From an uncultured Clostridia bacterium (lineage in GTDB: Bacteria > Bacillota > Clostridia > Oscillospirales > Acutalibacteraceae), in NCBI GenBank assembly GCA_947627725.1, contig CANQXE010000001.1:186001-250000 (forward strand): a stretch of DNA of 64,000 nucleotides. Direction: 5' to 3'. Of the stretch, positions 2,634 through 36,083 are shown piece after piece. The first letter of the stretch is position 1, and each line of letters opens with the position of its first letter. The notes below the pieces were generated by a model that saw only the letters and a list, made by a program, of their open reading frames with translations, did not search any database and was not told the origin of the DNA. The position numbers were made by a program, and so were the translations under genes.

Positions 2634-3002
2634 TTAAAAGAAAAGTTTACAAGATTGCGGTAGCGTATCACCGAAGCGCTGGAAGTGAACCACCTCACGC
2701 TCACGCAAAAATTTAATCGGTTCTATGATATCGGGGTCATCGACAAGTCTTAAAATATTGTCGTATGTGACACGTGCTTTTTGCTCTGCGGCAAGATCCT
2801 CGTTAAGGTCGGCTATTGTATCGCCCTTTACCTGCATACTAGCGGCGGACCAAGGAACTCCGCTTGCCGCGGTAGGATACACACCGTTTGTGTGGTCAAC
2901 AAAATATGCCGCAAAATTCGGATTATCCTCAATCTGCTTTTCAGTCAGATTTTTTGTAAGCTGGTGTACGATAGTACCAATCATTTCAAGATGACCTAAT
3001 TC
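2634..3002 (-). pseudogene. cotJC: CotJC/manganese-catalase family gene, 3' fragment split off by the prophage
   Basis: CotJC-type proteins are dimanganese catalases of the spore coat. This fragment encodes the C-terminal two thirds, with the family motifs HLEMIGTIVHQLT, AYFVDHTNGVYPTAASGVPW, AEQKARTTYDNI-like and REREVVHFQRFG. The reading frame continues into the attachment site at 2995-3002, where host sequence ends and prophage begins. The missing upstream part lies at 36076-36197. Two oddities were seen. The last residues (DTLPQSCKLFF) replace the longer C-terminus usual in the family, and there is no start codon or ribosome site in front of this fragment, so it is probably silent while the prophage is present. 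Confidence 0.88.
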
Positions 3003-3025
3003 GTTTGCGACATAATGTTATAAAT
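2995..3025. other. attL of the prophage
   Basis: The core CCTAATTC (2995-3002) joins host sequence on the left to prophage on the right. The prophage arm ACATAATGTTATAAAT (3010-3025) is the exact reverse complement of the arm at 36059-36074. Joining right arm, core and left arm gives a 48-bp attP of 16 + 16 + 16 bp whose centre falls on the TC at the end of the shared core. This is the layout expected for a large serine integrase. Confidence 0.85.
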
Positions 3026-3116
3026 AATTTCATACAAAAAAAGAATTCTAACTAAACATTAAAATCTTTTTTATATTTTAAATTAATTAAGTAACTTAAT
3101 ACCAAATAAGCAACGC

Positions 3117-3299
3117 TTATATCACTTTTGAGCTAATAGTAATAATTCTTACAATATCGCCTGAGCTGTCCTTGATACCGACAGCCGTCTCAATTACTGT
3201 TTCGGAGTTTCTGACAAAGGTTGCTTTCATAATAACAAGCTCGTCATTTTCAAATATATCTTCAACGTCCATTAATTCTTCATTGTTAATATCGGTCAT
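3117..3299 (-). CDS. 60-residue acidic protein, left-end prophage cargo
   Basis: A short protein starting MTDINNEELMDVEDIFENDE. The start at 3299 was chosen because AAAGGAAAT lies just upstream; a longer reading frame to 3422 would run through a terminator hairpin. It is acidic at the N-terminus and has an alternating hydrophobic C-terminal half (SGDIVRIITISSKVI). I recognise no family. It is the gene closest to attL, a place where phages often carry genes expressed in the lysogen. Confidence 0.55.
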   Translation of the reverse strand: MTDINNEELMDVEDIFENDELVIMKATFVRNSETVIETAVGIKDSSGDIVRIITISSKVI

Positions 3300-3334
3300 A
3301 GCTATTTCCTTTGTTTCAAAGAATAAAATAAAGT

Positions 3335-3374
3335 AATTAAAAAGAGCGATTAGATCACTTAAACCAAATCGCTC
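3335..3374 (-). terminator. minus-strand terminator
   Basis: The arms GAGCGATT (3344-3351) and AATCGCTC (3367-3374) pair over a 15-nt loop and are followed on the minus strand by CTTTTTAATTA. It separates the 60-residue gene from anything transcribed from further right. Confidence 0.6.
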
Positions 3375-3494
3375 AACCTCAGCTTGCAATATTATTATAA
3401 TGTTAGATGAAAATAAAATCAATAAAATAGATAATACAATAATGAGAATAATGCAACAGTTATGAATTTGTTTTCCCTCGTTCTATTAATACAT

Positions 3495-3527
3495 AAAAAA
3501 AAGGGAACCAATACAAGTATCGGCTCC
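3495..3527 (-). terminator. strong minus-strand terminator
   Basis: The arms at 3504-3514 and 3517-3527 pair over 11 positions on the minus-strand RNA, two of them as G-U pairs, followed by eight T. It would end transcripts coming from the small minus-strand frame at 3561-3767. Confidence 0.75.
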
Positions 3528-3560
3528 TTGGAAACATAACTGAATATGTTTTGTTCTACA

Positions 3561-3767
3561 TTACATATTATTACACAAATCAAAAAAATAGTCAACAATT
3601 TTTTTGACAAATTCATAGTTTGATTGAATTAGTGCATTTTTTTGAAAATAATCTTTATAACGAATAAATTTCTTATCAAACAAATCTTTTAATTCTTTCA
3701 AAGTGTAATATTTTATTTTCTTGTAGAACGGCAAATAAAATTTAATTGTATTTTGTAGATATATCAA
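3561..3767 (-). CDS. possible 68-residue basic protein (uncertain)
   Basis: The frame starts at a TTG and encodes a lysine/tyrosine-rich protein (YYTLKELKDLFDKKFIRYKDYF). It is followed by a good terminator (3495-3527), which argues for a transcript here. However there is no convincing ribosome site, and the start abuts the promoter of the divergent gene at 3793. It could be a decayed gene or an RNA. No family was recognised. Confidence 0.35.
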   Translation of the reverse strand: MIYLQNTIKFYLPFYKKIKYYTLKELKDLFDKKFIRYKDYFQKNALIQSNYEFVKKIVDYFFDLCNNM

Positions 3768-3774
3768 TTATAAT
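3746..3774 (+). promoter_or_regulatory. promoter of the 99-residue gene
   Basis: TTGTAT (3746-3751) and TATAAT (3769-3774) with 17-bp spacing lie directly upstream of the GAGGTG ribosome site of the gene at 3793. Confidence 0.6.
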
Positions 3775-3792
3775 GTCAATGAGGTGTACACT

Positions 3793-4092
3793 ATGAATTA
3801 CGATGATTTATTTGCAAAAGCAATGGCGAATTTTCTACACAGAGAAATAATAGAGGATGCTCATTCAAAATATAATATATCCCAAGAAGATATGGAACAA
3901 ATGAACAGAAAAGCCGTGAACAGGGCTAAATTGCTCACTGAAATAATGATAGATACAAAAAAATTAGATGCTTTCACTATTCTTTATTCATTAGCAGTTA
4001 TAAATGAATGGGATGATCCTGTTGAAACAGATGATGTAATAGGCATAAGAAATACTATTGATAGAACTGCCAATACAGGCAAAATATTTTGA
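3793..4092 (+). CDS. 99-residue soluble protein, prophage cargo
   Basis: The ATG at 3793 is preceded by GAGGTG; a GTG three codons upstream lies inside that ribosome site and was rejected. The protein is mostly helical and charged (MNYDDLFAKAMANFLHRE at the N-terminus) with no membrane segment or recognised motif. It is the only plus-strand gene in the left part of the prophage and has its own promoter and a terminator behind it. It is therefore expressed apart from the late operon, typical of a gene active in the lysogen. Function unknown. Confidence 0.6.
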   Translation: MNYDDLFAKAMANFLHREIIEDAHSKYNISQEDMEQMNRKAVNRAKLLTEIMIDTKKLDAFTILYSLAVINEWDDPVETDDVIGIRNTIDRTANTGKIF

Positions 4093-4098
4093 TAAACA

Positions 4099-4141
4099 AA
4101 AAGCCGCCCCTTACCTCAACAGAGATAAGGGGCAGTCTTTT
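4099..4141. terminator. bidirectional terminator
   Basis: GCCCCTTA (4106-4113) pairs with TAAGGGGC (4126-4133), with extra pairs inside. T-runs follow on both strands, so it can end the plus-strand gene at 3793-4092 and the minus-strand transcript of the 296-residue gene with its mini-gene. Confidence 0.85.
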
Positions 4142-4146
4142 AAGAT

Positions 4147-4176
4147 TTACAATTCAGGTGCTGTTCCAAGTCCCAT
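4147..4176 (-). CDS. mini-gene, 9 residues (MGLGTAPEL)
   Basis: A 9-codon frame with a good ribosome site (AAAGGATGAG, 7-8 nt before ATG). It lies between the stop of the 296-residue membrane gene (4241) and the terminator at 4099-4141. Its first seven codons and its ribosome site repeat those of the 19-codon frame at 5365-5424 almost perfectly. The repetition of both start site and peptide argues for translation, but a nucleotide-level role cannot be excluded. Confidence 0.45.
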   Translation of the reverse strand: MGLGTAPEL

Positions 4177-4195
4177 AACACTCATCCTTTCATTT
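4156..4195. repeat. 40-bp direct repeat, copy 1
   Basis: Identical to 5404-5443 at 38 of 40 positions. It covers the ribosome site and the first seven codons of the mini-gene. Both copies lie just before a terminator at the end of a minus-strand gene, suggesting that the 296-residue gene was inserted together with a duplicate of the operon end. Confidence 0.85.
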
Positions 4196-4240
4196 GACTA
4201 GAATTATTATACCTCTTTTTTTAAAATTGTCAACAAAAAT

Positions 4241-5131
4241 TTACTGAAAGTTTTCTGGAATCGTTCCATTGTTTGTTTCCTCAGCTTTAATATTTTGTCT
4301 AGCTGTTGTAGATTTTTTTACCCATATCTCATAAAGTCCCTGTAAATTTCTATATAATTTTGGTTTTCCTAGCTCCGAACATTTTGAGATATCATAATAT
4401 AAAGTTCTACACATTTCAATATATGTTGGATATAGTGACTGATATACAACACTTTCGTCAGCAACATTATGTGTAAAATACATTGCAAATTGTTCTGCAT
4501 TATTAAGGACTTTAGTAACATAATTATTGAAAAAATCATTCATTGCTTTGTCAACATCAACCTTTATGACTACTTTACCTGATCCACCTTCTTTTGTTTC
4601 ATTAACTGCAAATCCGTTCATGTGAAGATTGAATGCTTCATTAATTTCAACGATTCTCTTTAAAAATTGTTTTGATGAATACATTTGATTTAGTTTTTTT
4701 ATTTCGTCTTGTGAAAAAATGTCATTCATTTCTTCAACATCAAAATCTTTCATTTGTGCTTTATCTTTTTGAAGGAACTCGTATATTCCGGCAGTTTTAT
4801 AAACACAATTTACAACAGCAAATGGTGTTAAAACCTCATTTTTATAGTATTCAGACAAGTCAATAGCTTTTTGAACTTTATCAGTTTGCATTTTAATGAT
4901 ACTACTTTTGGAAGATAAATAATATTGCCAAACGGCTATTACAGTTCCTACAATCACAAATAGCGATGCTAATATTTGAGATATTTTTTCTATAATCTCA
5001 ATTTTATTGGTTCCACACGAAAAAATAGGAAGTTCTTTTATAGAAAGAGGTATTAATATTATAATTAAAGATACTGAAATTAATATTATTGATATAATTT
5101 TTCTCTTGTGCTTTTTTAAAAACTTCTTCAT
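4241..5131 (-). CDS. 296-residue membrane protein, prophage cargo
   Basis: Two N-terminal membrane segments (about 12-32 and 51-72) precede a long charged, helical cytoplasmic part beginning SSKSSIIKMQTDKVQKAIDL. The general look is that of small-family phage or plasmid membrane proteins with a short periplasm-side hairpin, but I cannot name a domain. It lies downstream of the lysis genes, separated from them by a terminator (5272-5314), and so probably has its own promoter. That position fits genes expressed by the lysogen, such as superinfection exclusion factors; this is inference from position only. Confidence 0.7.
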   Translation of the reverse strand: MKKFLKKHKRKIISIILISVSLIIILIPLSIKELPIFSCGTNKIEIIEKISQILASLFVIVGTVIAVWQYYLSSKSSIIKMQTDKVQKAIDLSEYYKNEVLTPFAVVNCVYKTAGIYEFLQKDKAQMKDFDVEEMNDIFSQDEIKKLNQMYSSKQFLKRIVEINEAFNLHMNGFAVNETKEGGSGKVVIKVDVDKAMNDFFNNYVTKVLNNAEQFAMYFTHNVADESVVYQSLYPTYIEMCRTLYYDISKCSELGKPKLYRNLQGLYEIWVKKSTTARQNIKAEETNNGTIPENFQ

Positions 5132-5271
5132 TTTACAATCCTTTATTTTTATTAAGGAGATTATATAACATATTAATACAAGAAATAAATTGATTTAGTC
5201 AATACATATTACAAAACTGCATAAATTATCGACAAAAAAATAGATAATATTACAAATTGTATCTATATAAA

Positions 5272-5314
5272 CAAAAAATCGCCCCTAGCTCCTACAAACA
5301 TAAGAGCCGAGGGC
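5272..5314 (-). terminator. terminator of the late (lysis) operon
   Basis: The arms at 5281-5291 and 5304-5314 pair on the minus strand with two G-U pairs and one mismatch, followed by six T. It is the first terminator after the lysis genes and marks the end of the long minus-strand late transcript. Confidence 0.75.
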
Positions 5315-5364
5315 TTTTGCTTTAACAATATTTAATTAATAAATCAATGGTGAACACATAATAT

Positions 5365-5424
5365 TCACGCCCATTCTTCTTCAAATCTAATGTATTTCAA
5401 ATTAGGTGCTGTTCCAAGTCCCAT
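5365..5424 (-). CDS. mini-gene, 19 residues starting MGLGTAPNL
   Basis: A 19-codon frame (MGLGTAPNLKYIRFEEEWA) with a strong ribosome site AAAGGAGAAG. It begins 14 bp after the stop of the endolysin gene and is the last gene before the late-operon terminator. A shortened copy, ending after the ninth codon, exists at 4147-4176. The conserved part is the hydrophobic GLGTAP segment. I do not recognise the peptide. It could be a late small protein, a signalling peptide or a regulatory upstream frame. Confidence 0.5.
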   Translation of the reverse strand: MGLGTAPNLKYIRFEEEWA

Positions 5425-5443
5425 AACACTTCTCCTTTCATTT
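5404..5443. repeat. 40-bp direct repeat, copy 2
   Basis: Partner of 4156-4195 (38/40 identical; the two differences lie between ribosome site and start codon). It overlaps the last codons of the endolysin gene and the start of the 19-residue mini-gene. Confidence 0.85.
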
Positions 5444-6934
5444 CAGCCAGTTAGTGTTGTCATTGTAAGCGGTAATCCATCCGGACGGGCATTTCACCCA
5501 AACTTTTTTTAATTTCGTATCAGTATAGCTGTCCTGCACTGTTATTTTAGTACCTGATTTGAAGTAAGCATTTGCGTTACGAATTTTTGAGGTAGCGTTC
5601 TTCTTGCCGTCTGTAGTCAGCTCCTTGACCTTTTTTCTAACACTCGCATTGTGGTTAGCATATATGCCTCTTACACCCTTTAAGGTGTAAACCTTGCCCT
5701 TTGTGTATGTCGGCAGCTTTGCTGACGTTACAGGAGATGCAGAAAGATAAGATGTGCTTACCCATTTGTTTGTGCCTATTTTGCTCCAGCCTCCGCTCGT
5801 TGCGGTTACGGTTACTTTAGCTTCTTTTGCAAGCGTTCCGACAATGGCTGCCGAGCTGCTTGCACTTTTACGGACATTAAGATTTAAACTCTGTGTGGCA
5901 ACATATCTTGTATAGCTTGTTGCTTTCGGCTTGCTTGAGGTATTATTGCCGGATGATTTGCTTGTAGCCTTGTAGTCATTACTATATATCCAGTAGTTTA
6001 CTGTATTACCGTATTTCTTGAAACTGCTCTCACTTACAAATGCAGAATTACCGCTTACTGTTACCCCTGCGGCACGTCTTGACGCAGTATTAAACTTTCC
6101 TGAATACAAATAAGGGTCATATACTGTAATTGTACCGCCGTTGTCCGCAACAAGCACTATGTAATGTCCGCCTGTTGTAAATAATCCCGAATTACAGGAG
6201 GCAACAACAAAATAATCTGTTATACCGTCTTTGTTTTTATCTGTCTTAAGATATTTTATCATCGTATTAAATGATGATGTTGAATAATATTCGTTAAAAT
6301 CAAAGTAATCGGCTACAAAAGACCAGCAAGCCCACGCCGTACCGTTATTGCTTGTACGGTAGCCGTTATCAACAAATAACTGTGCCATTGTAGTGGGAAG
6401 TATAGCGCCCTTCGAGCTTGATACAACCATTGCCGCCGATGTGGGACCGCAAGCAGATGACTTCATTGTCTGACTGCTGTCGCCTATACTTGTATAAGGC
6501 TTATTTGCCCATCGGCTGTCAGCCTGACTGTAATATGTAAGCCCGGAGCAAGCGCCGAGTAATTTATTGCCTTTGCCTGTGTTCGTTCCGTCATAGGACG
6601 GATTTTCCTGTTCTATCTGTGCATCAGGCTCTATTGCGCCTTCATCAACAATATCTGCTTCATTATCAGGAACAGGTGCAAGCTCATCTGTTGCAATATC
6701 CTGTTTGGATGCAACCGCATTTTTTGTATCGGCAGCTATTTTCTGAACTTCATCAGATATTGTCACTGTCTCTACACTGCTGACATTGTTGTTGGTATCA
6801 ACTGCCCGTGTGGTCTGTTCTGTGCTAGTTTCGTCAACTGATACCGCAACATCATTACTGCACCCTGCGAACATACTAAAAATGAAAAGCACGCTAAGAA
6901 GTGTGCAAATAATTCCATCAATAATTTTTTTCAT
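5438..6934 (-). CDS. putative endolysin: lipoprotein with C39-like peptidase and SH3b domains
   Basis: This would cut peptidoglycan cross-bridges at the end of infection. The N-terminus is a lipoprotein signal with lipobox FAGC (lipid-attached Cys25), followed by a long acidic linker (26-130). The peptidase domain (about 130-330) has Cys162 in SACGPTSAAM, His257 in GGHYIV and Asp273 in VYDPY, the C39-type triad. A bacterial SH3 domain (about 340-400, NLNVRKSAS) and a second wall-binding-like segment end the protein. It lies below the holin genes in the late operon. A lipid anchor is unusual for an endolysin and could keep it outside the membrane in an inactive state. A secreted lysogen-expressed hydrolase is the alternative. 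Confidence 0.82.
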   Translation of the reverse strand: MKKIIDGIICTLLSVLFIFSMFAGCSNDVAVSVDETSTEQTTRAVDTNNNVSSVETVTISDEVQKIAADTKNAVASKQDIATDELAPVPDNEADIVDEGAIEPDAQIEQENPSYDGTNTGKGNKLLGACSGLTYYSQADSRWANKPYTSIGDSSQTMKSSACGPTSAAMVVSSSKGAILPTTMAQLFVDNGYRTSNNGTAWACWSFVADYFDFNEYYSTSSFNTMIKYLKTDKNKDGITDYFVVASCNSGLFTTGGHYIVLVADNGGTITVYDPYLYSGKFNTASRRAAGVTVSGNSAFVSESSFKKYGNTVNYWIYSNDYKATSKSSGNNTSSKPKATSYTRYVATQSLNLNVRKSASSSAAIVGTLAKEAKVTVTATSGGWSKIGTNKWVSTSYLSASPVTSAKLPTYTKGKVYTLKGVRGIYANHNASVRKKVKELTTDGKKNATSKIRNANAYFKSGTKITVQDSYTDTKLKKVWVKCPSGWITAYNDNTNWLK

Positions 6935-6951
6935 AATCTTTACCTCACTTT

Positions 6952-7218
6952 TTAACCCAGAAGTATATTTATAACATTTTCTTCTGCACCCTGAATCAGT
7001 GTTACACCTGATACATTACAATAGCAGTGTTCACTCCACTTTTCATCATTAAGTACATCAAAACAAAATGCAGTTTCTCCATCATAGCAAGCTGAATATT
7101 TATGTTCATTTCTTTCAATATTGATTTCGCTATCAAAAAGTTCCTCATCATTTTTTGTAAATAATCTTATTGTTTGAAACTCATCAATAAATTTTTCTAA
7201 GAACTCCCAAAGTTCCAT
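6952..7218 (-). CDS. 88-residue late protein of unknown function
   Basis: An acidic soluble protein (MELWEFLEKFIDEFQTI at the N-terminus; two cysteines in CYCNVSG near the end) lying between the holin and endolysin genes. It ends 17 bp before the endolysin start region. The domain is not recognised; the size and acidity would fit an inhibitor or partner of a neighbouring protein, but that is only a guess. Confidence 0.65.
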   Translation of the reverse strand: MELWEFLEKFIDEFQTIRLFTKNDEELFDSEINIERNEHKYSACYDGETAFCFDVLNDEKWSEHCYCNVSGVTLIQGAEENVINILLG

Positions 7219-7222
7219 AGCC

Positions 7223-7489
7223 TTAATCCTCCGTTTTTAATTCTTCTGAATTAACTTCAATACCCTCAACTGCATCAAGCACATTTTTTGTTTCTGCCTG
7301 AACAGATGCTTTATCAACAGTGCCTTCAATTACCATATAAGCAACCGCCGCTACACCTGCGATAACATACCCTGCTATCTGTACCTTTTCATTATTTGCG
7401 GATTTGAGAGCAGCGCCGATACCTGCTGCAATGATTACAGCAGTTACAATAAATTTTCTTGATGTTATTTTCTTAATGATGTTATTCAT
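7223..7489 (-). CDS. phage holin-like protein
   Basis: 88 residues with two membrane segments (about 14-32 and 38-56) separated by a short charged turn, a basic N-terminus (MNNIIKKITSRKF) and an acidic C-terminal tail. This is the build of small class II holins, which make membrane lesions that let the endolysin act. It lies between an XhlA-like gene and the endolysin in the late operon. The family cannot be fixed from the sequence alone. Confidence 0.75.
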   Translation of the reverse strand: MNNIIKKITSRKFIVTAVIIAAGIGAALKSANNEKVQIAGYVIAGVAAVAYMVIEGTVDKASVQAETKNVLDAVEGIEVNSEELKTED

Positions 7490-7490
7490 A

Positions 7491-7745
7491 TTATTTCACC
7501 TCGCTTTCAATATCTTTTATTCTATGATTTATAACTTTGATTTGTTCTTCAACAACAGGCATTCGCTTGGCAAATCCATTATGCTCACGAACTTCACGGG
7601 TTAACTCATCTATCTTTGTATCTGTAACCGCTTGCTGTTTTTCAATTTCTGACTGCATTTTGCGGTTTGAACTGATATTTGATATAACCACTCCGAGAAC
7701 TGATAATCCGCCTGTTATCAAAGCAACTATAATTGCCTCTGACAT
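7491..7745 (-). CDS. XhlA-like lysis membrane protein
   Basis: 84 residues: one N-terminal membrane helix (EAIIVALITGGLSVLGVVI, about 3-21) followed by a coiled coil (about 28-84, ending KVINHRIKDIESEVK). Similar short proteins accompany holins in many Firmicutes phages. The topology is the reverse of classic B. subtilis XhlA, where the helix is C-terminal, so the name is by analogy. It ends 2 bp before the holin gene. Confidence 0.7.
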   Translation of the reverse strand: MSEAIIVALITGGLSVLGVVISNISSNRKMQSEIEKQQAVTDTKIDELTREVREHNGFAKRMPVVEEQIKVINHRIKDIESEVK

Positions 7746-7748
7746 AAC

Positions 7749-7862
7749 CTATGCTCCTTTGTTATTATCTTTCGCTATCTTTTCCTTGATTTTTTTAATG
7801 GCAACAAACAGTTTGTCATTTTCGTCCATTTCTCTGAACTTTCCGTTTTCGAGTATTTTCAT
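7749..7862 (-). CDS. 37-residue small phage protein after the tail fibre
   Basis: A short charged protein (MKILENGKFREMDENDKLF, then a lysine-rich end). Its ATG overlaps the stop of the tail-fibre gene by 4 bp (ATGA), and it ends 4 bp before the XhlA-like start, so it is clearly part of the operon. The position matches the XkdX-type small genes found behind tail fibres, but the sequence does not let me assign that family. Confidence 0.65.
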   Translation of the reverse strand: MKILENGKFREMDENDKLFVAIKKIKEKIAKDNNKGA

Positions 7863-9193
7863 CGCTTTCCGTATGCCTCCTCAGACTGAATATTTTTAGG
7901 CTCTAATTTGATTAAATTTAAACTTGACATACCGGTTATATGAAACTCATTCAGATAATCCACGTCTCTTTTTTTGTGAATAGTTTTACTGCCCTTTGAA
8001 GAAGTTAAGGTGTTATCAATTATATAAAATGAATCGCCCATTGATATTTCCAAGGCAAAATCCATCCATTCACCTTCAACTACTACATCTCCAAAATCTT
8101 CTCCGCTTACATTTTCTACACCGGAACAACCGGGTAAGTTTAAAGCATAAATATGCAGCAATAAGTTTTCAATTAAGATTTTTGCTCTGTATTTAATAAC
8201 CCGGCACGGTCTTTCTGCTAATGTTGTACCGTCTGCATATGCGCCTAAAAATGTTTTTAATTCTTTCCAACACGTTTCTCTGTAATATTTATTAACAAAA
8301 TCATATGCTGTAGAAAAGTGGTCGTAATCTTCTTGTGTAATTGCTACCTCGGAGGGATATACAGGAATGACCAATGCTTCCTCAAAATTACCGTTCCCGG
8401 AATCAAATAAAATAGCTCCTTCTCCCATTCCAAAGCCAAAGTTTTCAGTGGCATCATATCCGAATATCACCATAATCGGAGATAATTCTGCTAACTTTTC
8501 TGTTAAATTGATAAGAACATTCTCAAATTCTTCATCACTTTTTACAAAAATTGTTTTTAAGAGCTTACCGCCGAGCAGCACATTAGCTACCGCACTGTTT
8601 GCTATGGCGTTATTACTTTCTAAGGAAAGCTCTGTATCAATTGTAATTTCCGCATCCTTGCCAGGAGGTCCCGGATCGCCCTTGTCCCCTTTAAGCCCTT
8701 GAGGTCCTTGATCTCCTGTTTCGCCCTTAGGACCCTGCGGTCCTGTCTCTCCTTTTGGACCTTGTATGCCTTGTTCACCTTTTTCGCCTTTCATTATCCC
8801 TGAATCAACGAGTTTCTTTATCAGAGCATAATGTGCTTCTAATTCCGTTTGTGTAGGTTTATCCGCCTCAACAATTGAACTATCATATGTACCCTTATTA
8901 ATGTACTCAATGCATGGAATCGGAGAGAGACGCAATGTGGTTTCTCCGTCTGCCACCTCATAAGCATAAATCCCGATTCTACATCTGCCTTCCTGAAGCT
9001 CAGGAGCAAAACAAGTATTGTTTTCTACAGTTCTGAATTCATCATTAAATACTGCCCGAACAATCAGTCCCTTATATTCTTCGGAAAAATTAAAAATACA
9101 TTTAATTTGTTCAACATTACCAGAAGTCAGTTTGTCGCTTTTATTTAACATTTTCACTTCTGTTTCTGTTACATTAAATTCTAAAGTTATCAT
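7859..9193 (-). CDS. tail fibre / receptor-binding protein with collagen-like repeats
   Basis: A probable host-recognition protein at the tail tip. Residues 1-110 resemble a baseplate-attachment domain (BppU-like N-terminus), and 136-179 are about fifteen Gly-X-Y triplets (GPKGETGPQGPKGETG) predicted to form a collagen triple helix, so the protein should be a trimer. The remainder (180-444) is a receptor-binding head of unknown fold. It follows the tail-hub gene in the order usual for siphophage tails. The repeats are encoded by near-identical DNA units and could vary in number. Confidence 0.82.
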   Translation of the reverse strand: MITLEFNVTETEVKMLNKSDKLTSGNVEQIKCIFNFSEEYKGLIVRAVFNDEFRTVENNTCFAPELQEGRCRIGIYAYEVADGETTLRLSPIPCIEYINKGTYDSSIVEADKPTQTELEAHYALIKKLVDSGIMKGEKGEQGIQGPKGETGPQGPKGETGDQGPQGLKGDKGDPGPPGKDAEITIDTELSLESNNAIANSAVANVLLGGKLLKTIFVKSDEEFENVLINLTEKLAELSPIMVIFGYDATENFGFGMGEGAILFDSGNGNFEEALVIPVYPSEVAITQEDYDHFSTAYDFVNKYYRETCWKELKTFLGAYADGTTLAERPCRVIKYRAKILIENLLLHIYALNLPGCSGVENVSGEDFGDVVVEGEWMDFALEISMGDSFYIIDNTLTSSKGSKTIHKKRDVDYLNEFHITGMSSLNLIKLEPKNIQSEEAYGKR

Positions 9194-29530: not shown

Positions 29531-29823
29531 GGTCGCCAATGGTGGTCGCATAACACCTTTAAACTGCGTAAGGTAATTACTAATATAGCGTTACCGGTGG
29601 AGAGAAGCACCTTTAAAATTCGCAAGAGACGGCACTCGTTTAAAATGCTTCACTGTATTGTGTATTCCCTATAAGTTATTAGCGATTAGGCAATTTGCAG
29701 AACCAAAACTGCCTAAGTGATGGAACATTTCAAAGAAACTTAAGTGCAATTTAAGTATCATCAAAAAATGAATTTCTTTTGATGATTGCAAAATGTTAAG
29801 AGTAAAAAAATTTGGGTAAAACT

Positions 29824-29852
29824 CAGATATAATTGCACTATATCTGTTTTTT
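29824..29852 (+). terminator. terminator of the 396-nt RNA
   Basis: CAGATATA (29824-29831) and TATATCTG (29839-29846) form an 8-bp perfect hairpin followed by six T. It lies 7 bp after the end of the convergent cro-like gene and could also slow that transcript from the other side. Confidence 0.85.
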
Positions 29853-29858
29853 ATTAGG

Positions 29859-30089
29859 TTATGCGTTGCATTTTTGGGACGTTTTGTGTAAAAAAATTTC
29901 AACTTTATCGGATGATTCAACAATTTTCAACGCATCACATATTTTGACAATTTCACCAGTCTTAAAATCACTCTTATTATTTATTTTAAGATTGAAAGTA
30001 TCTTTATTCATCCCAATATATTGTGCAAAAGTTCTTTGACTAAATCCCGCATTTACAATCAATCCTTTTAATCGATTTGTATCAACCAT
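29859..30089 (-). CDS. Cro-like regulator (DUF739-type HTH)
   Basis: 76 residues. The start MVDTNRLKGL at 30089 has a perfect AGGAGGTGAT ribosome site; a longer frame reaching 30248 would cross the divergent gene's promoter. It has one helix-turn-helix (FSQRTFAQYIGMNKDTFNLK, about 16-35) as in short phage Cro/DUF739 proteins. It is expected to oppose the CI-like repressor at 30751. An operator-like repeat (29869-29880) lies inside its 3' end. Confidence 0.82.
   Translation of the reverse strand: MVDTNRLKGLIVNAGFSQRTFAQYIGMNKDTFNLKINNKSDFKTGEIVKICDALKIVESSDKVEIFLHKTSQKCNA
29869..29880 (+). promoter_or_regulatory. operator-like repeat CATTTTTGGGAC inside cro 3' end
   Basis: This is the same 12-bp word as at 30613-30624, 30662-30673 and 30704-30715 in the repressor control region. 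It is in the same orientation but 730 bp away and in coding sequence, as expected for an auxiliary operator supporting DNA looping or for a roadblock of the convergent transcript. Confidence 0.55.
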
Positions 30090-30113
30090 TTTTATCACCT
30101 CCTGTTCAGTGAT

Positions 30114-30143
30114 TTGACCGTCACCCCCTATCTCTGCTATAAT
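30114..30143 (+). promoter_or_regulatory. promoter of the 81-residue immunity-region gene
   Basis: TTGACC (30114-30119) and TATAAT (30138-30143), spacing 18 bp, read rightward from the gap between the cro-like gene and the gene at 30168. Confidence 0.65.
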
Positions 30144-30167
30144 TGTTTTGAGAAAGGAGGCGATAAA

Positions 30168-30413
30168 TTGAATAAAGTATATGCTTGTCTTGTAGGTCAA
30201 TGGGTATGTCTTAATGATGATGAAAACTGTACTATCGGCGAATATCACAAATCGCCATCTGTTTGGTGGGAGGAAAAGGCTAAAATTTACGCTCCCTCAG
30301 TTCGCAATCAGGAAATCGAAAATAGTTTGTACAGTTTGGATTATGTTCATATCTATTACAATGGAAATGATTATCGCATTAACCCTATATTCATTCAAAT
30401 CGTTAATGGCTAA
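30168..30413 (+). CDS. 81-residue protein, divergent to cro
   Basis: It starts with TTG (LNKVYACLVGQWVCLNDDEN) because AAAGGAGGCGAT lies right before it; the upstream frame to 30114 lacks a ribosome site. Soluble, with four aromatic-rich strands near the end (YVHIYYNGNDYRINPIFIQI). It overlaps the 58-residue gene on the other strand tail-to-tail by 4 bp. The gene lies in the lysis-lysogeny region, but the family is not recognised. Confidence 0.65.
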   Translation: MNKVYACLVGQWVCLNDDENCTIGEYHKSPSVWWEEKAKIYAPSVRNQEIENSLYSLDYVHIYYNGNDYRINPIFIQIVNG

Positions 30414-30586
30414 ATAAATTTTCTATAGTCCTTCAATTCATCTAGAGTAGCGATTAAAAGTTTGTCCTTTTGTTCGCTACTCTTTTTCTCAAAAGTGCGC
30501 GTTATAATCGTTGAAAGCATTGTCCATTCCAAATAGGTTATACCCTGTAGAGCTTTAAAAATTTCTTCCTGTTTTTCGTTTGTCAT
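30410..30586 (-). CDS. 58-residue protein under operator control
   Basis: The ATG at 30586 is preceded by GAGGAGGTGAG. It encodes a helical protein (MTNEKQEEIFKALQGITYLE, ending KLLIATLDELKDYRKFI). Its promoter (30655-30660 and 30631-30636 on the minus strand) lies between two copies of the operator word, so the CI-like repressor should switch it off in the lysogen. It may be an antirepressor or early switch protein, by position only. Confidence 0.65.
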   Translation of the reverse strand: MTNEKQEEIFKALQGITYLEWTMLSTIITRTFEKKSSEQKDKLLIATLDELKDYRKFI

Positions 30587-30612
30587 TTATGACTCACCTC
30601 CTCGATTCGTTT

Positions 30613-30729
30613 CATTTTTGGGACGATTTAATCATAGCACATCAAAAATATACTTGTCAAGCATTTTTGGGACACTTTTTTGATTTTTTTATTTTTCATC
30701 TTGCATTTTTGGGACATAAATGATATTGT
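30613..30729. promoter_or_regulatory. lysis-lysogeny control region with three operators and two opposing promoters
   Basis: CATTTTTGGGAC occurs at 30613-30624, 30662-30673 and 30704-30715, all in the same direction. The minus-strand promoter (TTGACA at 30660-30655, TATGAT at 30636-30631, spacing 18) lies between the first two. The plus-strand promoter of the repressor (TTGCAT 30701-30706, TATTGT 30724-30729, spacing 17) has its -35 inside the third. A repressor bound here would block the 58-residue gene and limit its own synthesis. Confidence 0.8.
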
Positions 30730-30750
30730 ATATTTGCGAGGTGATAATAA

Positions 30751-31077
30751 ATGAGCGAAATATCTAATAGGTTACTAAAATTGATTAATGACAATGATAT
30801 ATCCTATGGTGAGCTTTCAAAACAAACTGGTATTCCGAAATCTGCTTTACAAAGATATGCTACAGGCGAAACAGAAAAAATACCACTTACTCGCATTGAA
30901 TTACTTGCAACTGCTCTGCACACAACCCCGGCTTATATTATGGGCTGGGAAACTGAGGATAAAAAATATTCTGAAAATGAACTTGACGAAGAAATACTTA
31001 AAATATTTGACCATCTCTCTGAGGAAAAGCAAAAGCAGATTCTTGATTATATAGCTTTTCTTGCTTCTCAAGAATAA
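30751..31077 (+). CDS. CI-like phage repressor (XRE family)
   Basis: 108 residues. The N-terminal helix-turn-helix (ISYGELSKQTGIPKSALQRY, about 17-36) is of the XRE type, with the next segment EKIPLTRIELLATALHTTPA typical of Clostridia phage repressors. The C-terminal part (about 70-108) is a short helical dimerisation tail with no RecA-dependent peptidase domain, so SOS induction by self-cleavage is unlikely. Its promoter overlaps an operator repeat, so it is autoregulated. Confidence 0.88.
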   Translation: MSEISNRLLKLINDNDISYGELSKQTGIPKSALQRYATGETEKIPLTRIELLATALHTTPAYIMGWETEDKKYSENELDEEILKIFDHLSEEKQKQILDYIAFLASQE

Positions 31078-31410
31078 GCATATATTTAAGCAGTTTTTCT
31101 TTCTGTGTATAATTTAAACTATTTAAATAAATTTTGATGCTTTTATTTTTCATTATGTATTTAACCCCTTTTCAAACATTTGTTCTTAACATATAGCTTA
31201 TACCATTGTTTAAGAATTTTCAATAATTAAAAATTCATAGTCCAGAAAATGACACTATGCCGCTAAACACTATTGACAAAATCGCTTTCTAAAGCAATAA
31301 TAATACTGGTTATTTTTACCTGTAAAGTGGTAAATATTGGTAAAATTTTTCATCTATTTTTTTACATTATTTTTCTGTATTTTAACATATTCTATTGACG
31401 AAATATGCCG

Positions 31411-31457
31411 ACTTTTGTTATTTATGAAATGATTACTTATTTTTAAGTAACAAAAGT
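31411..31457. promoter_or_regulatory. 10-bp inverted repeat before the zinc-ribbon gene
   Basis: ACTTTTGTTA (31411-31420) and TAACAAAAGT (31448-31457) are exact complements over a 27-bp spacer, ending 25 bp before the gene. A TTGACG lies just upstream (31395-31400). It may be an operator or a leader hairpin. The remaining gap 31078-31390 is AT-rich and holds one further promoter-like TTGACA near 31273 and nothing else I can support. Confidence 0.5.
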
Positions 31458-31481
31458 TCATATTTCAAAGGAGAATAGAAA

Positions 31482-32309
31482 ATGAAAAAATGTGATATAT
31501 GTGGTTATTCTAACGAAGACACGCAAATGTTCTGCAAACAATGCGGAAATAAATTGTTTGACTCTCCACCGCAAAATAACCAATATCAGCAACAACCGAA
31601 TCCGAATCAATATAGTCCTCATCAAAATCAGAATACTCAAAATAATCCGCCGGGTAAATTTTATCAACCATTGCAATACCAGCAACAAACACAATCTTAT
31701 TCGCAACCGTATCAGCAGCAATACGAAAATGCACCTATCCCCCCACAAACAAAAAAGGCGAAAAAGGGCAAGGGTTGTTTAATTACAGTACTTATTGTAG
31801 TAGTAATTTTAGCTTTAATGTTCTTGTTTGCAAATTTAAGTAATTCCAACGAAACTGAAAACACCAACTCAAAAAGCACTACATCACAAACTACAACAGA
31901 AAGTAATGAAGAAAAAGCAGAGAAAGGTTTATATGTACTCGACAATTCAGAACTTAAATATGTATCAGCAAAAATTGTTAGTGAAGATTATGGTGATAGC
32001 CATTATTTAATAGTAAATTATGAGTATAAAAACACATCCGAAGAAAACATTGCTTTTTATTATGATGTAACAACACAAGCCTTTCAAAATGGTGTTGAAT
32101 TGCAAAGTCCAATATCAACATATGGAATACATGATTTTGACTTCCATAATACAGAAAAGGAAATAAAACCCGGAGTAACCATAGAAATACAAGAAGCATT
32201 TGAAATCAGTAATTATGATGATAAAGTAACAATTGAAATATTTGATAATTTGTTTAGTGATAAAGCTGATTATTCATTTGAAATTAATCCAAAAGAAATT
32301 AAAGATTAA
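31482..32309 (+). CDS. zinc-ribbon membrane protein with DUF5067-like domain, cargo
   Basis: 275 residues: N-terminal zinc ribbon (CDICG at 4-8, CKQCG at 18-22), a Gln/Asn/Pro-rich linker (about 28-90), one membrane helix (about 99-119) and an extracellular beta domain (about 150-275; YLIVNYEYKNTSEEN, AFQNGVELQSPIS) resembling DUF5067/DUF4352 proteins. Such proteins are surface-exposed in Firmicutes and are often found in mobile elements. Possibly a lysogenic-conversion factor. RBS AAAGGAG. Confidence 0.75.
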   Translation: MKKCDICGYSNEDTQMFCKQCGNKLFDSPPQNNQYQQQPNPNQYSPHQNQNTQNNPPGKFYQPLQYQQQTQSYSQPYQQQYENAPIPPQTKKAKKGKGCLITVLIVVVILALMFLFANLSNSNETENTNSKSTTSQTTTESNEEKAEKGLYVLDNSELKYVSAKIVSEDYGDSHYLIVNYEYKNTSEENIAFYYDVTTQAFQNGVELQSPISTYGIHDFDFHNTEKEIKPGVTIEIQEAFEISNYDDKVTIEIFDNLFSDKADYSFEINPKEIKD

Positions 32310-32315
32310 TCAAAA

Positions 32316-32353
32316 TAAAAAAACGCCCTACCCTGCGCCAACAGGATAGAGCG
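32316..32353 (-). terminator. hairpin with minus-strand T-run
   Basis: The arms at 32324-32335 and 32342-32353 (CGCCCTACCCTG / CAGGATAGAGCG with one mismatch) fold tightly. The T-run follows on the minus strand, so as a terminator it faces leftward, although the gene ending here is on the plus strand. Its 3' arm is part of a 20-bp direct repeat (32340-32359, again at 33314-33333). Confidence 0.5.
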
Positions 32354-32359
32354 AAAAAA
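32340..32359. repeat. 20-bp direct repeat, copy 1
   Basis: Perfectly repeated at 33314-33333. The two copies flank the NYN nuclease gene with its leader, suggesting that this gene was added to or lost from the cargo region as a unit. Confidence 0.75.
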
Positions 32360-32437
32360 AGAGAAAAATATAACGTGTTATATTCTAAAGACAATATTAG
32401 AAAATTTTTACAAAAGTATTAATTTTTTAAATTTTTG

Positions 32438-32466
32438 TTGACAAATTACTATTTTGGGCATATTAT
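32438..32466 (+). promoter_or_regulatory. promoter of the NYN nuclease leader
   Basis: TTGACA (32438-32443) and TATTAT (32461-32466), spacing exactly 17 bp. The predicted start is about 32473, leaving an untranslated leader of about 110 nt. Confidence 0.75.
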
Positions 32467-32472
32467 TTAGTG

Positions 32473-32559
32473 TGTAGCAAGAATTGCTCACAAGTTAACT
32501 ATAGTTCCAGATAGTAGATCTCCCACTATGAGGGAAGTTTCGAGGTCTGGAGCTTTTTT
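32473..32559 (+). ncRNA. leader RNA with terminator in front of the NYN nuclease gene
   Basis: A small hairpin AGCAA/TTGCT (32476-32488) is followed by a larger fold: CCAGA (32507-32511) with TCTGG (32546-32550), enclosing TCCC (32521-32524) with GGGA (32532-32535). The fold ends in AGC and six T (32554-32559). It lies between a strong promoter and the ribosome site of the NYN gene, so most transcripts may end here. It may be an attenuator or a separate RNA antagonist of the nuclease. No tandem repeats of the kind seen in type III antitoxins are present. Confidence 0.6.
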
Positions 32560-32583
32560 ATTTTGTTGAAAGGAAAAGAAGAT

Positions 32584-33303
32584 ATGGGAAAAACGGCTAT
32601 AATGATTGACGGAGGTTTTTACAGAAAGCAAGCAAATTATTTATTTGGAAACAAAACTCCTGAACAGAGGGCAAATGAATTGATAGAATACTGTCACCGA
32701 CATTTAAAGCAAAACAGATATAAAGACGACACAAGCTCTAATTATAAAGAATTATATAGAATTTTTTACTACGATTGTCCTCCGTCAGAAAAGTCAATTT
32801 ATAATCCAATAACCCAAAAAACTGTAAATCTTGCAAAAAGTAGCTTATATAGTTGGTCAAATGATTTTTTTAAAGAATTATCTAAAAAAAGAAAAGTTGC
32901 TTTAAGAATGGGTGAGTTGTTAGAATCAACTGCTGGATATACTTTAAAACCTGAAGCTCTAAAAAAATTATGTAGAAAGGAAATAACTGTAGATGATCTA
33001 GAAGATAGTGATTTTCAATTAGACATTCAGCAAAAAGGCGTTGATATGCGAATTGGTCTTGATATTGCATCATTAGCACATAAAGGCCTTGTGGATCAAA
33101 TTGTACTTATTGCCGGAGATAGCGATTTTGTACCAGCTGCTAAATACGCAAGAAGAGAAGGTATTGATTTTATTCTTGACCCTATGTGGCACACAATCAA
33201 AGATAGTTTAAACGTACATATTGATGGACTAAATCAACGTACAAATAAACCGCCATATAATACGAAAGACTCATTATATATTAACAATGTTTCAAAAGAA
33301 TAA
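32584..33303 (+). CDS. NYN-domain (PIN-like) nuclease, cargo
   Basis: 239 residues; the start MGKTAIMIDGG has AAAGGAAAAGAAG upstream, so the earlier TTG at 32563 was rejected. NYN/LabA-like proteins fold like PIN RNases. The acidic metal-site residues are present: Asp in IMIDGGFYRK near the N-terminus, Asp in KGVDMRIGLDI and Asp in LIAGDSDFVPA. Such proteins are often single-strand RNA nucleases in phage-defence settings. A terminator-bearing leader RNA precedes it. It may protect the lysogen from other phages; this is inference. Confidence 0.82.
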   Translation: MGKTAIMIDGGFYRKQANYLFGNKTPEQRANELIEYCHRHLKQNRYKDDTSSNYKELYRIFYYDCPPSEKSIYNPITQKTVNLAKSSLYSWSNDFFKELSKKRKVALRMGELLESTAGYTLKPEALKKLCRKEITVDDLEDSDFQLDIQQKGVDMRIGLDIASLAHKGLVDQIVLIAGDSDFVPAAKYARREGIDFILDPMWHTIKDSLNVHIDGLNQRTNKPPYNTKDSLYINNVSKE

Positions 33304-33313
33304 ATATTAATGC

Positions 33314-33333
33314 AACAGGATAGAGCGAAAAAA
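33314..33333. repeat. 20-bp direct repeat, copy 2
   Basis: Perfect copy of 32340-32359, lying between the NYN gene and the RhuM gene. It is not associated with a full hairpin here, so it looks like a recombination scar rather than a functional terminator. Confidence 0.75.
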
Positions 33334-33356
33334 GATAACCTAAAGGAATATACTGT

Positions 33357-34358
33357 ATGGAGAATGAATTTCAATTTTTGATTTATCGTTCATCTGATGA
33401 AAATATAACTGTCAATGCAGTTATTAAAGATGAAACAATTTGGCTCACACAAAAAAGTATGGCTGAATTGTTTGGTGTAAATATCCCTGCAATATCAAAA
33501 CATTTACAAAACATCTTTGAAGATGGCGAATTAGATTATATTTCAACTGTTTCCAAAATGGAAACAGTTCAAAACGAAGGTAAAAGAACAGTAAAGCGTA
33601 ATATAGACTTTTATAATCTTGATGCGATAATTTCGGTTGGATACAGAATAAATTCCAAAAAAGCCACTCATTTCAGGCAATGGGCAACGGGCATATTAAA
33701 AGAATATATGACAAAAGGTTTTGCTCTTGATGATGAACGACTGAAGCAAGGAAAAACCGCTTTTGGTAAAGATTATTTCAGAGAATTATTAGAGCGCGTT
33801 CGCTCAATCAGAGCCAGCGAAAGACGAATCTGGCAGCAAATAACAGATATATTTGCCGAATGCAGCATTGATTATGATAAAAATTCTGAAATCACAAAAG
33901 ATTTTTATGCTATGGTACAGAATAAATTCCATTATGCTATAACCGGGCAAACGGCTGCAGAAATTATAAATTCCAATGCTAATCACAACAAAGAGCATAT
34001 GGGATTATCAACATGGAAAAATGCTCCAGATGGAAGAATTCTTAAATCAGATGTAACTATTGCAAAAAATTATCTTAATGACAAACAAATTAGACAACTT
34101 GAGAGAACTGTAACAGGCTATTTTGATTACATAGAGGATTTAATTGAACGCGAAAACACCTTTACTATGGAGGAATTTTCCTCAAGTGTTAATGAATTTC
34201 TTTCGTTCAGAAGATATGATATTTTACACGATAAAGGAAAAATTTCTAAAAAAGAAGCTGACGAAAAAGCATATTTAGAATATAAAGAATTTAATAAGAC
34301 ACAAAAAATATTATCAGATTTTGATAAAGAAATTAAAAAGTTAAGCCAGAATAAATAA
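33357..34358 (+). CDS. rhuM: RhuM-family protein, cargo
   Basis: 333 residues with the RhuM pattern: IWLTQKSMAELFGVNIPAIS near 27-46, RNIDFYNLDAIISVGYRINS near 81-100, then ATHFRQWATGILKEYM. RhuM was first named in a Salmonella pathogenicity island, but its biochemical role is unknown; it is frequent in mobile elements and sometimes next to restriction or Fic genes. AAAGGAATA serves as ribosome site. It lies directly left of the integrase leader. Confidence 0.85.
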   Translation: MENEFQFLIYRSSDENITVNAVIKDETIWLTQKSMAELFGVNIPAISKHLQNIFEDGELDYISTVSKMETVQNEGKRTVKRNIDFYNLDAIISVGYRINSKKATHFRQWATGILKEYMTKGFALDDERLKQGKTAFGKDYFRELLERVRSIRASERRIWQQITDIFAECSIDYDKNSEITKDFYAMVQNKFHYAITGQTAAEIINSNANHNKEHMGLSTWKNAPDGRILKSDVTIAKNYLNDKQIRQLERTVTGYFDYIEDLIERENTFTMEEFSSSVNEFLSFRRYDILHDKGKISKKEADEKAYLEYKEFNKTQKILSDFDKEIKKLSQNK

Positions 34359-34384
34359 AAAACACCCCTTGACTACGCCAATAG

Positions 34385-34487
34385 CCAAGAGGTTTAAATA
34401 GCAGAGTGTATTACAACCCCACCGAACAATAGGATTGTACCACACTCTGCTGAAAAAATCAAGCAGGGTATTTTTATGCCCTTTTTC
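34385..34487 (+). ncRNA. leader RNA of the prophage integrase (attenuator-like)
   Basis: It shares blocks with the leader of the recombinase at 36210-37646: 34385-34395 (CCAAGAGGTTT), 34415-34431, 34445-34480 and the ribosome-site block 34502-34517. GCAGAGTGT (34401-34409) can pair with ACACTCTGC (34442-34450), but that CTCTGC can also pair with the downstream GCAG. A 6-7-bp hairpin (34466-34482) followed by five T then forms a terminator 30 bp before the start codon. This is the layout of a switchable attenuator. Confidence 0.6.
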
Positions 34488-34514
34488 AAGTAATATAAAG
34501 TAGGATGTGATACA

Positions 34515-36056
34515 ATGAACGTCAACAAAATAATTATGTATCTTAGAAAAAGCCGTTCTGACGATGAAAAGGCTACAATTGAAGATATCCTTCAACGTCA
34601 CGAAAATATTTTACAAGAGTACAGTTTAAAATCTTTCGGCTCGGTTATACCTGAGCATAACATATATAGAGAAATTGTATCAGGTGAAACTATTGACGAT
34701 AGACCTGAAATTAAAAAAGTATTATCAAAAGTCTCTAACGGTGAATGCGATGCCGTTCTTGTTGTTGAGCCCCAGCGTTTGAGCAGAGGTGATATGCTGG
34801 ATTGTGGCACTATCATCAGAGTATTTCAATATAGCAATACAAAAGTAATAACTCCAAATAAAGTTTTTGACCTTACTGAAAAATATGATCGCAAATTCTT
34901 AGAAATGGACCTTCAGCAAGGTAATGATTATCTTGAATATGTCAAATTCATTCTTAATAGAGGAAGAATCGCATCAGTAAAAGAAGGGAATTTCATAGGT
35001 CAACATGCGCCCTTTGGATATAGCAAGAGTATGATTGAAAAGCATCATACTCTTACACCTAACTCTGACGCAGATATCGTTAAGCTCATCTTTGACATGT
35101 ATGTAAACAAGGATATGGGATGCAGTCAGATAGCTTCAGAATTGGACCGCAGATGTATTAAACCGCAAAGGATAGAATATTGGTCTGCAGCTTCAATTAG
35201 AGAAATGCTGCGAAATCCTGTTTATATCGGCAAAATACGTTGGAATTTTAAAAAGACGAAAAGGTATACTGACGAACAAGGAAATACCTATAGCAAACGT
35301 ATAAGAGGAACAGAGGACACAATTATTGTAGATGGTTTGCACCCGGCAATTATTGATGAGGAAATTTTTAATAAAGCTCAGGAAAAGACAGGGAGAAATT
35401 CAAGAACTCCAAAGGGATTTGAAATACGTAATCCCTTAGCAACTCTTGTGAAATGTGCTAACTGTAATCATTCTATGACTTATCGCACATATAAAAATTC
35501 AAACGGCACACAAAAAAATGCGCCAAGATTATTATGCACCAATCAAATACACTGCCATACACCCTCTATTGAGTATGATGTTTTAGAAAAGGCAGTTATT
35601 ACAGCCTTGAATCTTCATATACAGGATTTTGAAATGAAACTTAAAAACAATGAAGGTGACTCATTAAAAATTCAAATAAAGATACTTGATAAATTAAAAA
35701 AAGAATATGAACAAATCGAAGAACAACAAACAAAATTATATGAATTACTTGAAAAGGGTATATATAGTGATGAACTGTTTCTTAAACGAAATGAAATATT
35801 ATCACAAAACCGAGAGCAATTATTATCAGCTATTGCTGAGCAGGAAAATAAATTACCTGATGCAATTGATTATGAAGATAAAATTATAAAACTTTCAACT
35901 TGTATAGAAACCATTAAAAATAATTCGATATCAGCAAAAGACAAAAATGCGTTTTTAAAATCAGTTATTAAAAAAATTGAGTATCGTGCAGATAACTCTT
36001 GTAAAGGCAATAGATTTAAAGATACCGAATTTACTATTGATATATTTTTAAATTAA
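34515..36056 (+). CDS. int: prophage integrase, large serine recombinase
   Basis: 513 residues; integrates and, with a directionality factor, excises the prophage. The catalytic Ser13 lies in MYLRKSRSDDE, and the catalytic core has VVEPQRLSRGD (about 83-93). The recombinase domain is about 160-300 and the zinc-ribbon cysteines are in CANCNH and later in LLCTNQIHC (about 310-350); a coiled coil follows (about 385-460). AGGATGTGAT ribosome site. It ends 3 bp before the right attachment arm, as usual for such integrases. No excisionase was recognised. Confidence 0.93.
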   Translation: MNVNKIIMYLRKSRSDDEKATIEDILQRHENILQEYSLKSFGSVIPEHNIYREIVSGETIDDRPEIKKVLSKVSNGECDAVLVVEPQRLSRGDMLDCGTIIRVFQYSNTKVITPNKVFDLTEKYDRKFLEMDLQQGNDYLEYVKFILNRGRIASVKEGNFIGQHAPFGYSKSMIEKHHTLTPNSDADIVKLIFDMYVNKDMGCSQIASELDRRCIKPQRIEYWSAASIREMLRNPVYIGKIRWNFKKTKRYTDEQGNTYSKRIRGTEDTIIVDGLHPAIIDEEIFNKAQEKTGRNSRTPKGFEIRNPLATLVKCANCNHSMTYRTYKNSNGTQKNAPRLLCTNQIHCHTPSIEYDVLEKAVITALNLHIQDFEMKLKNNEGDSLKIQIKILDKLKKEYEQIEEQQTKLYELLEKGIYSDELFLKRNEILSQNREQLLSAIAEQENKLPDAIDYEDKIIKLSTCIETIKNNSISAKDKNAFLKSVIKKIEYRADNSCKGNRFKDTEFTIDIFLN

Positions 36057-36058
36057 TC

Positions 36059-36083
36059 ATTTATAACATTATGTTCCTAATTC
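36059..36083. other. attR of the prophage
   Basis: The arm ATTTATAACATTATGT (36059-36074), one T, then the shared core CCTAATTC (36076-36083) followed by host catalase sequence. It is the mirror of attL at 2995-3025. Confidence 0.85.

Follow-up and report, generated by a model that had tools for sequence, protein, structure and literature searches.

The 64,000-nucleotide stretch analysed here (the window) lies on contig C1 of G000, the genome of an uncultured Clostridia bacterium of the family Acutalibacteraceae (GenBank assembly GCA_947627725.1, contig CANQXE010000001.1, positions 186,001 to 250,000), and contains a CotJC-type manganese (Mn) catalase gene that is split by mobile elements, each with its own large serine recombinase (LSR). 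Two half genes, both recognizable as Mn catalase, are found on the minus strand at 2634-3002 and 36076-36197, and are separated by element B (3003-36075), a tailed-phage prophage which interrupts the gene inside the E-L-G-H motif that supplies metal ligands. In the numbering of the rejoined gene, piece 3 (2661-3002) runs from codon 65 to about codon 178, and piece 2 (36076-36197), a “mini-exon” placed between two LSR genes, covers codons about 28-67. The attachment (att) sites attL (2995-3002) and attR (36076-36083, within piece 2) have CCTAATTC in common, and the joining of the flanks of element B yields an uninterrupted ...DIGVEELGHLEMIG..., in which pieces 2 and 3 continue in frame as ...TDIGVEE-LGHLEMIG.... 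The attP of element B, rebuilt from the ends of the element, comprises 48 bp, with perfect, mutually complementary arms of 16 bp (36059-36074 and 3010-3025) around a 16-bp centre. A sequence-only reading of the window had proposed that a prophage split the catalase gene at its ligand motif, that excision would restore the gene exactly, and that the attP was a 48-bp palindrome with perfect 16-bp halves, and the half genes, the phage genes, the integrase, the unbroken frame, and the rebuilt att site confirm each of these proposals.

The interior of element B is that of a phage, with genes for a terminase, a portal protein, a major head protein, a tape measure protein, tail proteins, and helicase loaders. 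Its LSR, int1 (34515-36056, plus strand), which belongs to family 3 and site B1 of the classification given below, ends 19 bp from the shared core. At the integrase-distal end of the prophage, a small acidic open reading frame (ORF) of about 60 amino acids (aa; 3120-3299, minus strand) has homologs at the matching end of a second element, A, on contig C23 of the same genome (69%; L013:12815-12961) and in the congener G081 (45%). From its sequence and position, this small end ORF of elements A and B is a candidate recombination directionality factor (RDF) or end gene. Comparison of positions 2400-6400 with phages by megablast returned no match. Element B also contains a FuFi-1 RNA (RF02986) at 29666-29853, whose score of 112.7 bits is well above the gathering threshold of 59.6.

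The 5′ end of the catalase gene is absent from the locus, as the sequence-only reading had observed, and the argument that it drew from this against a working switch is incomplete. A search of the genome with the Mn-catalase family recovered codons 1-31 at G000:C23:32642-32734, directly behind a glycosyltransferase-like ORF (identified by eye), which is also the upstream neighbour of the uninterrupted gene in G100, G028, and G060. The C23 sequence past codon 31 (..TATTGCTTTTAGA..) mirrors the 13 bp at window positions 36190-36202, beside the mini-exon, and these half-sites form an attP in which perfect 13-bp arms flank TGGCGGACTG. The LSR gene int2 (36210-37646, minus strand; family 1, site A) ends 12 bp from the mini-exon. 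Given the mirrored half-sites on C23 and in the window, and the position of int2, it can be concluded that element A, with its own LSR, has also cut the gene, between QYGG and PDGEL in the protein, and here too the pieces rejoin exactly in frame.

The sequence that remains of element A in the window (37647-38220) resembles, in parts, the element A found in G076 and the region of int2 in G023, and is followed by chromosomal genes, which set in within 1-2 kb of int2 (38500-64000) and include HGD-D, leuAB, and GH30 types by Pfam and a rubredoxin-like gene by eye. On C23, flavodoxin and aldo-keto reductase types (by eye) lie right behind the small end ORF (L013:13000-16414). As the ends of element A are thus on separate contigs next to chromosomal genes, the switch may not work in G000. 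The gene may be dead in this strain only, with element A gutted, or rearranged through breakpoints that lie within it, and full restoration impossible, a state of affairs to which we give slightly less than an even chance, and which is compatible with a working system in the relatives. The chromosomal genes close to both ends of the element argue for it, as does HGD-D, which is located on another contig than the catalase gene in G028, G025, G008, and G067, and which a search of 10 genomes failed to find in six. The two half-sites of A are intact, however, as is the reading frame of int2, the ratio of nonsynonymous to synonymous substitution rates (dN/dS) of the pieces against G100 is 0.019, and the layout of the contigs could be due to a large intervening segment that separates the half-sites, or to faulty assembly. 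When the interior of element A from G076 or G084 was compared with the C1 and C23 stretches of G000 past the junctions, only the LSR matched, and an inversion test detected no C23-side gene in the stretches around the relatives' counterparts of the genes beyond int2.

The 3′ end of the gene has been altered by a third element, D. The last residues encoded at the locus (..LPQSCKLFF*; 2634-2660, minus strand) are a substitute tail derived from this element, which replaces the native tail of 25 residues. The native tail lies outside the window, at G000:C1:172589-172663, 16 kb to the left of piece 3, and is 100% identical to the tail of G100 over the 25 residues matched. In the congeners that lack int3 behind the gene, the tail is mostly as in G100 (..FGEGLRIVTDKLDSKNYYAFNPSFDK), whereas in those with int3 it reads ..FGD[TA]LPQSCK.., and a third type of tail is found in G008 and G025. 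The LSR of element D, int3 (407-1906, plus strand), belongs to what resembles an integrative and mobilizable element, which extends to the left beyond the window, and relaxase-like and MobC-like ORFs of element D were seen by eye in L015. Its rebuilt attP has perfect 10-bp arms around GGTGA, and 300 shuffles reached a score of 9 at most. With the insertion of the three elements, A (int2), B (the int1 prophage), and D (int3), the gene of G000 is therefore in four pieces. Resolvase, Recombinase, and zinc-ribbon domains are present in all three integrases, the zinc ribbon of int2 scoring 22.6 bits, below the cut-off of 25.3. A phosphatase-like ORF located just behind the gene in G100 (L015:4102-4632, L135:10515-11054) has a 92% match at C1:174068-174502, and since this match falls between the native tail and int3, the content or outer limits given here for element D are provisional. 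The pair of small ORFs between int3 and the end of the gene (1982-2601) looks, by eye, like a toxin-antitoxin system of the Phd/Doc type, and the spacing of int3 and the gene is similar in G021 (735 bp), with 46-48 bp in G004, G024, G028, G063, and G097, and 189 bp in G015.

Insertions of this kind recur throughout the genus. A search of 80 congeneric genomes gave matches in 51, of which G013 has a distant paralogue only, leaving 50 with the gene, which is uninterrupted over at least codons 1-173 in 22 (four of these, G004, G021, G024, and G028, with a D-type tail), and in pieces in 28. Two of the 28 are doubtful, given that the gene stops at a contig end in G009 and at codon 21-23 in G098, and the other 26 are clearly broken at the same few sites, that is, A (after codon 31), B (codons 60-66), or C (codon 137). 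Collinear pieces are found on single contigs in G076, G084, G102, G008, and G025, where the separation at site A is 35 kb (G076), 30.6 kb (G084), or 2.0 kb (G102), that at site B 13.7 kb (G076) or 20.7 kb (G025), and that at site C 11.4 kb (G008). G000, G025, G027, and G076 have breaks at both A and B, whereas G008, G011, and probably G080 have them at both B and C. Of the 28 genomes, 18 have an LSR gene near the break, at a distance of 0-67 bp, and mostly within 30 bp or overlapping, except for G102 (193 bp) and G082 (414 bp), and none was found within the stretch fetched for the other 10. The attB that had been predicted for empty sites in relatives is borne out at the level of the protein and the frame, with EEL in all 22 uninterrupted congeners, but its exact core, GAATTAGG on the gene strand, occurs in only one (G061), with variants in the other 21. 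The site-C element of G008 contains a coupling-protein-like ATPase (L095 14570-15865, by eye), which indicates that the elements in this gene are not all phages.

Each site has its own integrases. When the LSRs of the fetched loci were grouped at 45% identity (33 sequences of 340 aa or more, with three shorter ones excluded), five families were obtained, each of them tied to one site, with 13 LSRs at B2-type cores (codons 60-62), nine at A, six at D, three at B1, where the core falls on the codons of E65-L66-G67, and two at C. Three of the 13 members of the B2 family lie away from breaks, namely an additional LSR within the element B of G025, together with the LSRs of G048 (2.2 kb) and G049 (3.5 kb). 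Members of the site-A family are down to 54% identical to int2. The split at B1 is not a matter of chance, given that G008 and G011 have int1-family LSRs at these very codons, and that int1-like LSRs, with 38-42% identity, occur in the IMG/VR contigs L320, L321, and L324, the first two of which are apparently the same sequence.

The integrases of different families may also have a leader in common. The approximately 150 bp upstream of int1 resemble (72-87%) the sequence upstream of seven of the nine int2-family LSRs and of both other int1-family LSRs, with copies in the window at 34360-34514 (int1, plus strand) and 37646-37793 (int2), and end in a terminator-like hairpin, GGGTATTTTTATGCCC-T, ahead of the start of the LSR. 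This likeness is found even though int1 and int2 themselves share only 25-29% identity. An analysis of the leader RNA found only this hairpin of seven pairs, without covariation, and the sole overlapping Rfam match was below its gathering score. From its sequence, the leader is possibly an attenuator of integrase expression.

The identity of the gene is supported by the Mn_catalase domain, for which the pieces score 89.8 and 36.4 bits against a curated cut-off of 27, with the N-terminal piece of 31 codons scoring 24.8 bits alone, below this cut-off. Alignment to 1jku places the five metal ligands at E35, E65, H68, E137, and H170. The core of site C covers the E137 codon and that of B1 the E65 codon, whereas site A precedes E35 by about 4 codons, and site D follows H170 by about 6. 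The distances of A, B1, B2, C, and D from the nearest ligand are 4, 1, 3, 0, and 6 codons, respectively, and 31% of all the codons of the gene lie within 6, which makes the nearness of the sites to the ligand codons suggestive only. Conservation of the DNA was considered as a reason for the choice of sites and found no support, since windows of 36 bp on the five sites, in the order just given, are at the 66th, 93rd, 31st, 59th, and 65th percentiles of the gene (P = 0.22 for four random windows as high).

Similar breaks appear outside the genus and in viral databases. In an order-wide sample of 247 genomes, 244 of them outside the genus, 205 matched, and, among the best matches listed, at least 33 of the 244 have a partial gene with the same limits as their best match. 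These partial genes begin at codons 21-29 in 15 genomes and at 56-60 in six, and end at 138-146 in 12; the junction was inspected in one of these genomes (G049). Further candidates outside the genus are G037, where an LSR overlaps the break, G048, and G059. Among 89 IMG/VR loci retrieved by searches with int1 or int2, 11 have a catalase fragment beside the LSR, at site A or B, and a mini-exon between two LSRs, as in the window, is found in L242, L256, L279, and L302. A clear joined attP with a YGG core occurs in L241, L244, and L264, and a poorer one in L306, all of them with related LSRs, as would be expected for excised phages. L290 and L276, whose palindromes are either short or imperfect, were left uncounted, and the circular bajarodcaudo virus 3 (LSR 41% identical to int2), with mismatched palindrome arms and no clear YGG core, was not used. 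Twelve phage records match the catalase, and six of these hold fragments ending at codons 65-68 or starting at 59 or 133. The record of the Roseburia phage Jekyll (LR596902; L333, L334), the LSR of which is 39% identical to int1, begins with GAATTGGG between mirrored arms (by eye), and as GAATTGGG equals one coding of E-L-G, this phage may integrate at the corresponding point of its own host. Mn catalase has been counted as an antioxidant gene in 196 other gut phage genomes (PMC8008677), and some of the “phage-encoded” Mn catalases of gut phage lists may be fragments of host cotJC at the edges of prophages.

It might be asked whether the junctions are chimeras created in the assembly of metagenomic contigs, given that the genomes are mostly fragmented, with metagenome-assembled genomes among them, and that many of the pieces lie near contig ends. 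This is extremely improbable, as the same junctions turn up repeatedly among the genomes, including on the single long contigs of G076, G084, G102, and G008, and also among the contigs of IMG/VR and the records of human faecal phages, and this recurrence refutes the idea for the general pattern.

The split genes show the signature of purifying selection. Their median dN/dS is 0.049 (n = 21, each gene against its nearest intact counterpart), compared with 0.050 for intact pairs (n = 20, finite dS only, with G083 and G085 dropped). G090, G095, G099, and G101 are absent from the split set because they offer too few codons, and G009, G081, and G098 are likewise not part of it. None of the 21 has a stop codon in the columns kept, from which the codons next to the sites were left out. 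A CATANWAT box, which is like the mother-cell −10 box, precedes the catalase gene in 31 of 45 genomes, compared with a mean of 1.2 and a maximum of 6 in 1000 shuffles. In element B, the only ORF behind such a box is an unremarkable, membrane-like one of 88 aa. SpoIVA and CotJB are both encoded in G000. The sporulation role of the split gene is that suggested by its homology to CotJC, and the gene is not part of a cotJA-cotJB-cotJC operon, given that CotJB is encoded on contig C7, away from the catalase gene. The CotJ genes do not always occur together (PMC8745062).

Taken together, these observations suggest that the cotJC-type Mn catalase is probably a shared docking gene for at least five LSR families, and that the elements are intervening elements of the sporulation type, removed in the mother cell. 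An LSR, aided by a directionality factor, would excise each element there, as in skin and SPbeta, the whole catalase gene would then be made in the mother cell, and the forespore chromosome would retain the elements. Since the gene would be needed only in a cell that dies, the elements would pay little for splitting it. A broader and more tentative version, which we hold to be somewhat less likely to be true than false, is that cotJC would be a docking gene across the whole order of gut Clostridia, and a mosaic gene, with exons set by several unrelated, site-dedicated elements, which would be whole only in mother cells, after two, three, or more independent LSR excisions. On this view the elements would be independent occupants of the gene, each with a metal-ligand segment to itself.

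Several observations weigh against the docking-gene interpretation, and some of them would suit plain lysogeny. If the gene were simply a hot spot, at which integrases use the conserved codons of a dispensable gene, with excision on phage induction only, the insertions would be young and turn over rapidly, and the lysogens would live without the enzyme. In keeping with this, the gene is dispensable, as no catalase match was found in 29 of the 80 congeners, and G000 has a second catalase on C7 (35% identical), which bears on the same point. The CATANWAT box is no more frequent ahead of the LSR genes than expected by shuffling (4 of 32 against 3.1), the joined attP sites in IMG/VR fit induced phages, and the low dN/dS would be equally expected from young insertions, with no need for reconstitution. 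In 13 of the 21 split genes, dS exceeds 1.5. No RDF was identified, the small end ORF being no more than a candidate, searches of IMG/VR with the exact attP patterns of sites B1 and B2 gave 0 hits, and five IMG/VR contigs with LSRs 38-45% identical to int2 (L245, L248, L255, L258, and L261) have palindromes with other cores, which indicates that the wider int2 family is not confined to this site. The separated ends of element A in G000 count in the same direction. A plain hot spot of lysogeny is nonetheless rather unlikely. The gene is split in 28 of the 50 congeners that bear it, in several of them by two or more elements, and five LSR families converge on it. The insertion of G102, at 2 kb, has room for little beyond the LSR, the site-C element of G008 has its coupling-protein-like gene, the 21 split genes compared are free of stops, and the mother-cell-like box is kept upstream of the catalase gene.

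The docking-gene interpretation would extend a known principle. The published intervening elements split a sporulation gene once, as far as the available descriptions go, whereas here one short gene holds up to three elements at once, and is split in 28 of the 50 species of the genus that have it, and apparently also across the order. This makes it possible to test the preference of prophages for mother-cell genes, the coordination of several excisions, and the nature of the selection involved, and also provides a set of LSRs with paired att sites.

The closest parallels are the skin element (in sigK) and SPbeta (in spsM) of Bacillus, and the skin element of Clostridioides difficile. Skin and SPbeta are elements with their own LSR inside a sporulation gene, with inverted-repeat att sites and exact reconstitution (PMC4191935, PMC5025042), and excision by an LSR and a directionality factor in the mother cell has been shown for both (PMC4191935). 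The likeness to skin and SPbeta proposed in the sequence-only reading, which as a whole is partly supported, can be upheld for the LSR, the att sites, and the reconstitution. The present case differs in its target, an Mn catalase, and in having several cut points, several LSR families, and, in G000, three elements. Other sporulation genes are known to contain intervening elements, that is, gin (gerE, in B. cereus), yin (yabG), vfbin (spoVFB), and vrin (spoVR), described as one element per gene, and cotJC is not among the targets named in the descriptions consulted. In regulated gene integrity (Mageeney et al. 2020), an element breaks a gene and its attP brings no replacement sequence, as defined in PMC10111431, and by this definition sites A, B, and C belong to the category, and site D, with its substitute tail, does not. 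The C. difficile prophages phi027 and phiCDKH01 lie beside a CotJC-like or Mn-catalase gene (PMC11222575, PMC8270841), and are reported there as adjacent, with no split or reconstitution described in the available text. The LSR survey of Durrant et al. 2022 (PMC10083194) likewise includes diverse LSRs on one conserved site, such as that in a prolyl isomerase, and the word catalase is absent from its main text. A search of the literature recovered sigK, spsM, spoVFB, spoVR, gerE, and yabG as the named targets and no report of the reconstitution of cotJC or an Mn catalase, for which reason the target gene is called unreported here. The principle is thus known from skin, SPbeta, and their counterparts, and it is the target, the multiple sites, and the convergence of LSR families that appear to be new.

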